DNA of 64,000 nucleotides from NCBI RefSeq assembly GCF_030851345.1, contig NZ_JALPNU010000002.1:248001-312000 (forward strand). The letters are read 5' to 3'. The number at the start of each line of letters is the position of its first letter. Within the stretch, counting starts at the first letter, position 1. The translations under genes were made by a program, and so were the position numbers. Positions 21,280 to 35,335 of this stretch are shown here, one piece after another. Below the pieces are notes generated by a model. That model saw only the letters and a list, made by a program, of their open reading frames with translations. It had not been told where the DNA came from and made no database searches. The stretch comes from Marinifilum sp. D714 (GTDB lineage: Bacteria; Bacteroidota; Bacteroidia; Bacteroidales; Marinifilaceae).

Positions 21280-21488
21280 TACCGATCCGAGTTAATAAAG
21301 TTACCGTCTTGTTACCAAAATACCCGTCTGAGTTACCAGAATATCCATCCGAGTCAACTCAACACCCGTCTGAGTTACAGATATTGGCGTCCGAGTTAAG
21401 GAAATACCCATGCGAGTTACCAATATTGGCATCTGAGTAAGCCAAATACCCTTGCGAGTCATGAATCTTACCATCCGAGTTGGACAAG
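21280..21488. repeat. Ten-unit tandem array, 21-bp period
   Basis: Ten degenerate units follow each other at 21-bp steps, with one 20-bp unit at 21301-21320. They share a consensus near TACCCRTCYGAGTTANNRAAA, for example units starting at 21321, 21342, 21363, 21384, 21405, 21426, 21447 and 21468. Because 21 is a multiple of three, the minus strand is an open heptapeptide repeat (TRMGISL TRTPISV TQTGVEL TRMDILV). I see no start signal or conserved non-repeat domain, so I treat this as DNA repeat and not a gene. Confidence 0.85.
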
Positions 21489-21750
21489 GCCATAAAAACA
21501 TTGACTCGGAAAGCAAAACTGATGACTTAAACAGGAGGAATACCAACTCGCATTGCAATTTGAATGACTTTGTTAATGAATTTGCTTACTCAAACAGATG
21601 GTACATAAGCAAAGACCTGAAAATGGTACACCTTTATAGAAGGAAGCAAATCAAAAAGAAAACAGTTGAAAACTGTTGCCAAAATATCTTAGCATAAGAT
21701 ATTTATTTATTGGATTATTGTTTAAATTCACATGCCTAAAACATCTAAAA

Positions 21751-21791
21751 TTATCAGCTTACACAAACATATTGGGTTTGTAAGCTGATAA
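21751..21791. repeat. Long hairpin upstream of the cassette-like gene
   Basis: TTATCAGCTTACACAAAC is mirrored by GTTTGTAAGCTGATAA around ATATTGG, with one 2-base bulge. Weaker pairing extends outward (CCTAAAAC / ACTAGG). It may be a terminator, or the remnant of a preceding attC-like site ending at GTTAGGC. Confidence 0.6.
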
Positions 21792-21841
21792 AACTAGGAA
21801 ATAAAAGAAAAATAAGGATAAGTTTTTAAGCTTATAAATAA

Positions 21842-21848
21842 GTTAGGC
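21842..21848 (+). other. Cassette start site GTTAGGC (GTTRRRY)
   Basis: GTTAGGC fits the integron recombination core GTTRRRY. With the next two bases it forms GTTAGGCGC, the exact inverted complement of GCGCCTAAC at 22951-22959. The gene starts only 8 bp later, as is usual for cassettes. Confidence 0.5.
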
Positions 21849-21856
21849 GCAATTAA

Positions 21857-22945
21857 ATGAGAGAAATGGAAACTTATATATGTTTTTATACAACAAAACC
21901 TTTTTGGACAGGAGAAAAACCAGATATTGAATCTCTTATCTCAAATGCAGATGCCTTTACAAAATCTTTATCCGAAAAGACAATTGAATATGAAAATGAT
22001 TCAATTTATTTAGCTTTTTGTAAAGACGGTCTAGTTATGACAAGAATTAAGGAGTTGGAGTCAAGAAGAGATGAGTTTAAAGCTCAGAATGGGAAAGAAG
22101 AACCAATTCCTCCTGCAATTCAATTTACTTCTGAATACTTAAATTATTTGAATGCAATTCAAGTTATATTATCTTCTTCTCTTTTGAAGGTTGATAACTT
22201 TGCATATTTTAAGAACTCAAGTATCAGGTCGGGTGAGGCATTTACCATGAGTTTTAAAGATGGTAAATTTAATTCTAGTGGAGTTCCAGATAATTTAACT
22301 GAATCTTTTTACAGTGGACGATATCTTTCGCAATATAATCGAAACTACCCAATTCAAATAGATAAAAGAATCACATTCAGACGTGCTATTAAAGAAGAAG
22401 TATTTCGGACATGCTATGATGATTTAAATCTAATTATTGATGATACTGAAGCAATTCAAATGCTTAGTCAAGTAAACAGTGCATTAAGTGAGTATCACAA
22501 TTTGAATTTTAGACAGTCACTTGTACAATCATGGTTTGTAATTGAATATTATATCAATAAAAAATGGATTGAGTTTTTATATTCGAAACAAGCTAAAATT
22601 GATACAGATAAAAACAGAATAGATAGTACAAGAAGAGATTTTCTGACAGGACGCGATATGACTTCTTCAATATTGTCAAATATTCTTGAATTGAATGACT
22701 TAATAGACTACGACATTTTTGAAAAAATTAATACGGTAAGAGGAAAAAGAAATGTAGCTGTTCATAATTTAGATTTAATAGAAAGACTTGCTGACAAGAT
22801 GAAATCGAAACCAGGAAAGAAAAAAGATAAAAGAATAAGTACAGACGATTGTTGGGATGCATTTCTAGTTATAAAAGATTTTTTTAAGACTGAATATAAC
22901 TTGGATTTAAAAATGAGTGGAGGATTTTCTTATTCTACCTTATAA
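21857..22945 (+). CDS. HEPN-motif protein in an integron-like cassette
   Basis: The 362-residue protein is not a family I can name. Its C-terminal half is helical (LVQSWFVIEYYINKKWIEFLY...) and carries R298-N-V-A-V-H303, the RNxxxH signature of HEPN ribonucleases, as in Apea-like HEPN domains of toxin and defence proteins. The N-terminal ~200 residues (ICFYTTKPFWTGEKPD...) have no domain I recognise and could be a sensor. It has no signal peptide. The gene is framed by GTTAGGC and GCCTAAC plus a large hairpin, is AT-richer than its neighbours, and stands alone, all of which suggest acquisition. RNase activity is inferred from the motif. An ATG three codons on is also possible. Confidence 0.7.
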   Translation: MREMETYICFYTTKPFWTGEKPDIESLISNADAFTKSLSEKTIEYENDSIYLAFCKDGLVMTRIKELESRRDEFKAQNGKEEPIPPAIQFTSEYLNYLNAIQVILSSSLLKVDNFAYFKNSSIRSGEAFTMSFKDGKFNSSGVPDNLTESFYSGRYLSQYNRNYPIQIDKRITFRRAIKEEVFRTCYDDLNLIIDDTEAIQMLSQVNSALSEYHNLNFRQSLVQSWFVIEYYINKKWIEFLYSKQAKIDTDKNRIDSTRRDFLTGRDMTSSILSNILELNDLIDYDIFEKINTVRGKRNVAVHNLDLIERLADKMKSKPGKKKDKRISTDDCWDAFLVIKDFFKTEYNLDLKMSGGFSYSTL

Positions 22946-22952
22946 TAAAAGC

Positions 22953-23147
22953 GCCTAACACACGCTATATACCATAGGCTGGTACTAGGTTTCCGAATGT
23001 TTTGTGCTTTTACTGAGCAACGGCAAGGTAGCCATTTTAGAATAGTTATAGTTAAATGTAATCCTAAAGTCGCTACCTTGTCTTTTTATAAAAATTAAAA
23101 CATAAATCAACTAAGGCGCCTACGTTACATAGCGCCATCCGTTGAAT
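22953..23147. other. attC-like recombination site after the HEPN gene
   Basis: The order fits attC: R''-type box GCCTAAC (22953-22959), then CGCTATATA (22963-22971), a long imperfect hairpin, TACATAGCG (23126-23134) pairing with the latter, and an R'-type GTTGAAT (23141-23147). A strong inner stem pairs GGCAAGGTAGC (near 23030) with GCTACCTTGTC (near 23072). At 195 bp it is longer than the typical 57-141 bp range of attC sites, so the call is tentative. No integrase gene is in the window. Confidence 0.5.
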
Positions 23148-34829: not shown

Positions 34830-34903
34830 GGCGAGGTAGCTCAGTTGGTTAGAGCGCATGATTCATAATCATGAGGTCGGCGGTTCAAACCCGCCTCTCG
34901 CTA
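34830..34903 (+). tRNA. tRNA-Met (anticodon CAT), copy 1
   Basis: The 74-nt sequence folds as a full cloverleaf: acceptor GGCGAGG/TCTCGCT, D-arm AGCTCAGTTGGTTAGAGC, anticodon stem CATGA with loop TTCATAA (anticodon CAT), and T-arm GGCGG-TTCAAAC-CCGCC. CCA is not encoded. CAT could also belong to the tRNA-Ile that is modified to read AUA; acceptor identity was not tested. Confidence 0.95.
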
Positions 34904-35261: not shown

Positions 35262-35335
35262 GGCGAGGTAGCTCAGTTGGTTAGAGCGCATGATTCATAA
35301 TCATGAGGTCGGCGGTTCAAACCCGCCTCTCGCTA
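35262..35335 (+). tRNA. tRNA-Met (anticodon CAT), copy 2
   Basis: The 74 nt are identical to the copy at 34830-34903. The spacer between copies (~360 bp) and the terminator differ, so the copies are separate transcription units. Confidence 0.95.

Follow-up and report, generated by a model that had tools for sequence, protein, structure and literature searches.

Canonical integrons carry single-gene cassettes whose attC sites follow the order R''-L''-L'-R' and recombine at a G^TT crossover; the cassettes have complementary ends and are strung into tandem arrays, with an attI site beside the recombinase gene. In classical integrons it is the closure of the circle that makes the start of a cassette complementary to its R'' box, and the genes that cassettes carry are commonly without detectable relatives. 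An additional domain within the catalytic part of the integrase is treated as defining IntI (PMC9668308, PMC2426708). This insertion has been called essential for integron function, and in an "integron-like" subgroup of simple tyrosine recombinases it is not conserved in all members (PMC8138268). In Bacteroidetes proper, IntegronFinder 2 reported one complete integron, that of Salinibacter ruber; the same program gives the name CALIN to a cluster of attC sites, by default two or more, without an integrase (PMC9024848).

The locus described here lies in a 64,000-nucleotide stretch of the genome of Marinifilum sp. D714 (the window). The system to which it belongs shares with canonical integrons every feature of cassette, site and array listed above. 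It differs in its candidate recombinase, a family related to XerA and IntI that we name BXI, in which the additional domain is missing. In other words, judged from sequence, the system appears to work like an integron and yet falls outside the usual definition of one.

A single-gene cassette in an attI-like site

Reading the letters alone, a first-pass annotation proposed an attC-like site made of the boxes GCCTAAC, CGCTATATA, TACATAGCG and GTTGAAT around a nested hairpin. All of these elements are present, and the locus can be laid out as follows.

21746-21842, + strand: attI-like docking site, an inverted repeat TTATCAGCTTACACA..TGTAAGCTGATAA, then AAATAAAAGAAAAATAA, then ATAAATAAG^TT
21842-21853, + strand: left cassette end GTTAGGCGCAAT, which fits the GTTRBVNNNMAT profile of 60 BXI cassettes
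21843-23141, + strand: whole cassette, from crossover G^TT to crossover G^TT, with 9-bp end complementarity; replaced in M. flexuosum, absent in D737
21857-22945, + strand: cassette open reading frame of 362 aa, the sole one between the cassette ends, with the attC-like site directly 3'
22951-22959, + strand: R'' box GCGCCTAAC, six cassette-specific nucleotides and AAC (GCCTAAC at 22953-22959)
22963-22971, + strand: L'' box CGCTATATA
23019-23085, + strand: optional inner hairpin module, with a T run behind it; absent from two otherwise homologous copies
23126-23134, + strand: L' box TACATAGCG
23141-23147, + strand: R' box GTTGAAT; its G is the last cassette nucleotide and TTGAAT is the right flank

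The complementarity to GCCTAAC that had been noticed in the GTTAGGC at 21842 extends in fact over 9 bp (GTTAGGCGC at 21842-21850 against GCGCCTAAC). The site had been put at 195 bp, beyond the usual range; it measures 187-190 nt, which is normal here, since attC lengths among 60 end-matched BXI cassettes are bimodal, at either 118-127 or 175-190 nt. The suggestion of a distinct site class is supported. Other copies of the L'' box read CGCT[C]ATATA, one base more, with the extra C in 5 of 14. The inner hairpin, about 65 bp overall, consists of two 25-nt arms in imperfect inverted repetition (23019-23043/23061-23085), and with its T run it looks like a terminator by eye; a simple scan for terminators passed it over.

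A strict box filter, applied to both strands of the window, returned a single unit, the site itself. As proof, the filter on the window alone was rejected, for 0.3 units are expected by chance per 64 kb of simulated sequence and the reversed window yields three. Compared with shuffled sequence, the integrated strand has only a moderately more stable fold (z -2.5). These chance counts and the moderate fold leave the window by itself merely suggestive. What makes the site decisively real is the existence of 85-93% identical copies with AAC and GTT edges, together with the matching of cassette ends described below. An Rfam search of the window found nothing at the site and two tRNAs elsewhere; the latter (34830-34903 and 35262-35335) have identical scores and lie about 430 bp apart.

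The first-pass annotation had expected the R and L boxes to pair on folding. The R boxes are unpaired in the integrated strand; in the bottom strand of the closed cassette, joined as it would be after excision, the predicted fold is one long hairpin that pairs the R boxes as well as the L boxes; its energy is -33.5 kcal/mol, and that of the top strand -29.2 kcal/mol. This modelled fold is compatible with recombination of a folded bottom strand. Covariation within this attC class is uninformative, the copies being about 90% identical.

The cassette gene has no match above chance in Pfam, NCBIfam, PADLOC or PDB, and a sample of 295 genomes from the class yielded no homologue. Within it (22740-22790), the peptide RGKRNVAVHN contains R-x4-H, a motif also seen in HEPN ribonuclease domains, without a profile match.

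To the left, positions 21746-21842 align with the DNA that immediately follows the 3' end of the BXI gene in two other genomes, at 77.6% identity in one (G003, E 1e-21) and 75.2% in the other (G005, E 5e-16), and further BXI genes show the same 3' layout, a conserved stretch that includes an inverted repeat and AACAAG^TT. Because of this homology, the window locus reads as an attI-like site holding one cassette, with no recombinase gene in cis, whether lost or never present; at the locus, tblastn for an integrase remnant gave nothing beyond chance matches. With its single attC and no integrase nearby, the locus falls below the two sites of a CALIN. Further left (21280-21500) are degenerate short repeats (CCC.TCTGAGTTACC and similar), also seen in M. 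flexuosum and M. fragile; comparable stretches occur beside an integrase remnant on contig C61 of the same genome (L014) and upstream of a BXI gene elsewhere (L113).

Copies in relatives and replacement at the same spot

The first-pass annotation had suggested looking for the same frame beside other genes. Among 30 related genomes searched, copies of the window attC at 85-93% identity were found in three of the same genus and one of the same family, and Marinifilaceae relatives hold at least 17 copies. The strongest alignments begin at 22956-22958 and end at 23143-23144, which are the AAC and GTT triplets; outside these edges the nucleotides vary between copies, and the genes beside them are unrelated. 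A pattern scan of contigs identified as carriers Marinifilum flexuosum, M. fragile, Marinifilum D737, N1E240, Labilibaculum, Ancylomarina salipaludis, A. euxinus, and other Marinifilaceae and Marinilabiliaceae. No copies of the window attC were found in viral contigs.

The same chromosomal spot has different contents in different species. In M. flexuosum the flanks are conserved (78% on the left side, up to 21854, and about 91% on the right side, starting at the GTTGAATTTTC box), and the right flank CCGTTGAATTTTC stands behind a different cassette, which carries a 252-aa gene and a different attC-like site. The left end of this occupant is again GTTAGGC; its R'' box has AGC rather than AAC, which counts against the reading favoured here. 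In G005 a cassette likewise ends at this right flank, and in D737 and G003 the whole insert is absent and the flanking genes are contiguous. At this spot M. fragile has a palindromic element CTAACAGAGGCCTTTCAAAAAGTA...TACTTTTTGAAAGGCCTCTGTTAG (L082, 1300-1500), and in G005 the cassette is preceded by an apparent group II intron 3' end (L088, 1-250). Elsewhere, attC-targeting group II introns are known.

Matching cassette ends

The test of end-matching used the 17 copies of the window attC found by BLAST, sites that were chosen without recourse to the rule, of which 16 have enough upstream sequence. In 13 of these, GTT followed by the exact reverse complement of the six nucleotides before AAC lies within 3.5 kb upstream, against 0 of 16 in each of two letter-order controls; the remaining three have no matching start and count against the rule. 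Such matching is the mark expected of a cassette that has been closed into a circle. It extends to chains of eight cassettes in Ancylomarina (L106), seven in G010 and four in G016, where reversed controls give one or two, and across the phylum to chains of up to nine, where reversed or shuffled controls reach three at most. As a positive control we scored arrays headed by canonical IntI, taken from other classes of the phylum, and these show the same end-matching.

From 60 chained cassettes we obtain a left-end profile of GTTRBVNNNMA(T/G), with 5-7 nt of complementarity beyond GTT. The window cassette fits on every count: left end, complementarity and attC length. The R box of this system differs from the canonical consensus (RYYYAAC / GTTRRRY) in that GTTR is followed by free nucleotides, 6-7 in all, with a constant A at +10. 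As it happens, the boxes in the window agree with the canonical consensus as well. Further matched cassettes are present in the same genome, on contigs C46, C83 and C21. One array class in N1E240 (G012), AACAAAAGTAACC...CGAACAT, has an end other than GTT. In an N1E240 array (L043, 10367-17700), a repeated site of a different kind from that of the window, AACAAAAGTAACCGTTGCGCATCC...GGATGTGCCTTTACGAACAT, ends in GAAC instead of GTT and interrupts the end-matching chain.

A candidate recombinase without the IntI domain

No integrase had been visible beside the site. Indeed, no canonical IntI above the TIGR02249 cut-off was found in the D714 genome, as sampled by search, or in its genus and family relatives; one same-order genome does encode it. 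The genome does contain a candidate: an intact BXI gene on contig C45, separate from the window contig. On sequence grounds, BXI is a tyrosine recombinase family related to XerA and IntI and distinct from canonical IntI. Two representatives score 217.7 and 202.5 bits against TIGR02249, below its cut-off of 265, with model columns ~180-240 unmatched, and the spacing between the KGxxDR and HxLRH motifs is 64-69 aa in all 28 BXI proteins, compared with 106-107 aa across the measured IntI proteins. In the Ancylomarina protein (L106), Tyr339 is taken as the catalytic tyrosine from where it stands in the conserved KTTEIYTHV. The best NCBIfam model for the catalytic part is of the XerA type (NF040815; 221.9 for the C45 protein and 218.6 for that of Ancylomarina, curated cut-off 220), and the closest solved structures are those of XerA/Xer proteins (PDB 5hxy, 4a8e). 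A structure prediction made from three sequences, of middling quality (pLDDT 69.5, to be read for overall fold only), has XerA and IntI4 among its best matches. In a tree of 44 sequences, IntI (100/100), Xer (100/99) and BXI (93/66) each occupy one side of a branch.

BXI differs from XerA/Xer in its association with cassette arrays rather than dif-type sites and in a private N-terminal domain of ~70-85 aa. This domain has no Pfam match above cut-off and only chance-level PDB matches; as a lead only, it resembles W..K.WW motifs of the HARP/DUF5710 type (DUF5710 at E 0.04 in three of seven). Two loci (L119, L120) encode BXI proteins of 530-560 aa with several tandem N-terminal W..(K/N).W domains, and a relative at 48% identity lies in a 132-kb IMG/VR viral contig (L154) that has no cassette chain.

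BXI-type matches, some without the N-terminal domain, occur in 92 of 296 genomes of the phylum. In Ancylomarina the gene stands directly before the array. Of the BXI loci, 29 extend far enough downstream to be scored, and in 20 of them a barcode-matched cassette start lies 30 to 200 bp after the stop codon; the control set, itself not free of arrays, gives 198 of 1133 windows. The other nine BXI loci have no adjacent start, which counts against the association. An attI beside the recombinase gene is recognized by homology and cassette start only, and at the window locus the gene is missing. BXI arrays lie downstream of the gene and co-directional with it, in contrast to the canonical arrays scored here, which lie upstream of intI and divergent. 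Decayed BXI C-termini are present on contig C61 of the same genome and in M. fragile, there near an attC site. Since two genomes (G001 and G002) carry sites and have no IntI-type match at 1e-20, other recombinases or past activity are possible in them. Outside the class of the window, the phylum is rich in canonical IntI (84 of 296 genomes; G024 (L050), L177-L199); within that class, the same sample has IntI in 1 genome and BXI in 41, D714 included.

Alternative explanations and proposed mechanism

We consider it likely that this attC closes off a cassette of one gene docked in an attI-like site, within a system of BXI-driven cassette movement, and this explains the observations best as a whole. 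The attC-like reading is supported by the box layout, the complementary ends, the many homologous copies in arrays and the attI-like left end. A palindromic mobile element (MITE), or a terminator- or REP-like repeat with convergent boxes, would account for an inner hairpin that is self-complementary and repeated across genomes, and the first-pass annotation had allowed for a convergent palindrome. This is highly improbable: the copies are the same site beside unrelated genes, some lack the hairpin, and the variable nucleotides adjoining them are complementary to a point ~0.5-2.5 kb away, which no transposon footprint or terminator explains.

The site could also be an ordinary attC served by a canonical IntI that is lost or located elsewhere, with BXI a bystander. 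IntI integrons do exist in other classes and in one same-order genome, and their arrays have the same end-matching; we nevertheless regard this as unlikely, given the lack of an above-cut-off IntI in the genome as searched and in its relatives of genus and family, the excess of BXI over IntI in the class, the attI-like sites that adjoin BXI genes at the heads of arrays, and a box spacing, barcode cap and orientation unlike those of IntI arrays. A more serious contender, which we hold as a tentative possibility, is that the cassette is an inactive relic of a past array and is now fixed. A single cassette with no integrase in cis is what such a relic would look like, and integrase C-termini have decayed at other loci; against it stand the different occupant of the same site in M. 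flexuosum, the intact BXI gene on C45 and the matched cassettes on three other contigs.

Returning to cassette movement driven by BXI, we propose that the recombinase would act at G^TT between a folded attC and either attI or another attC, and that cassettes would thereby enter, leave or change place. The left end of a cassette (GTT and 6-7 specific nucleotides) would pair with the nucleotides before the AAC of its own attC, and in the excised circle the hairpin would take its outer stem from these paired ends. The intact protein encoded on C45 could act in trans on the window locus. The sequences themselves show the site and its boundaries, the matching ends, the homology of the docking site, the exchange of cassettes between species, the place of BXI at the heads of arrays and its missing domain. 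We infer that BXI acts on these sites from its position, the homology of the docking site and the absence of another candidate; its catalysis, the single-stranded substrate, the direction of exchange and the action in trans are all parts of this proposed mechanism.

Implications

We lean towards the view that this is a second integron system of the Bacteroidota, in which cassettes are captured by a XerA-like recombinase with a private N-terminal domain in place of the IntI additional domain, and that the additional domain would thus be dispensable for cassette recombination. The open-access literature that we searched holds no description of BXI arrays, and such absence is no proof of novelty. 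Integron surveys rely on the IntI additional domain to recognize an integrase, so they would overlook BXI-headed arrays or enter them as clusters that lack one. If BXI does drive these arrays, a large gene-shuffling pool in the Bacteroidota has so far gone uncounted, and related recombinases with and without the domain would offer a direct way to probe its role in the recognition of folded DNA.
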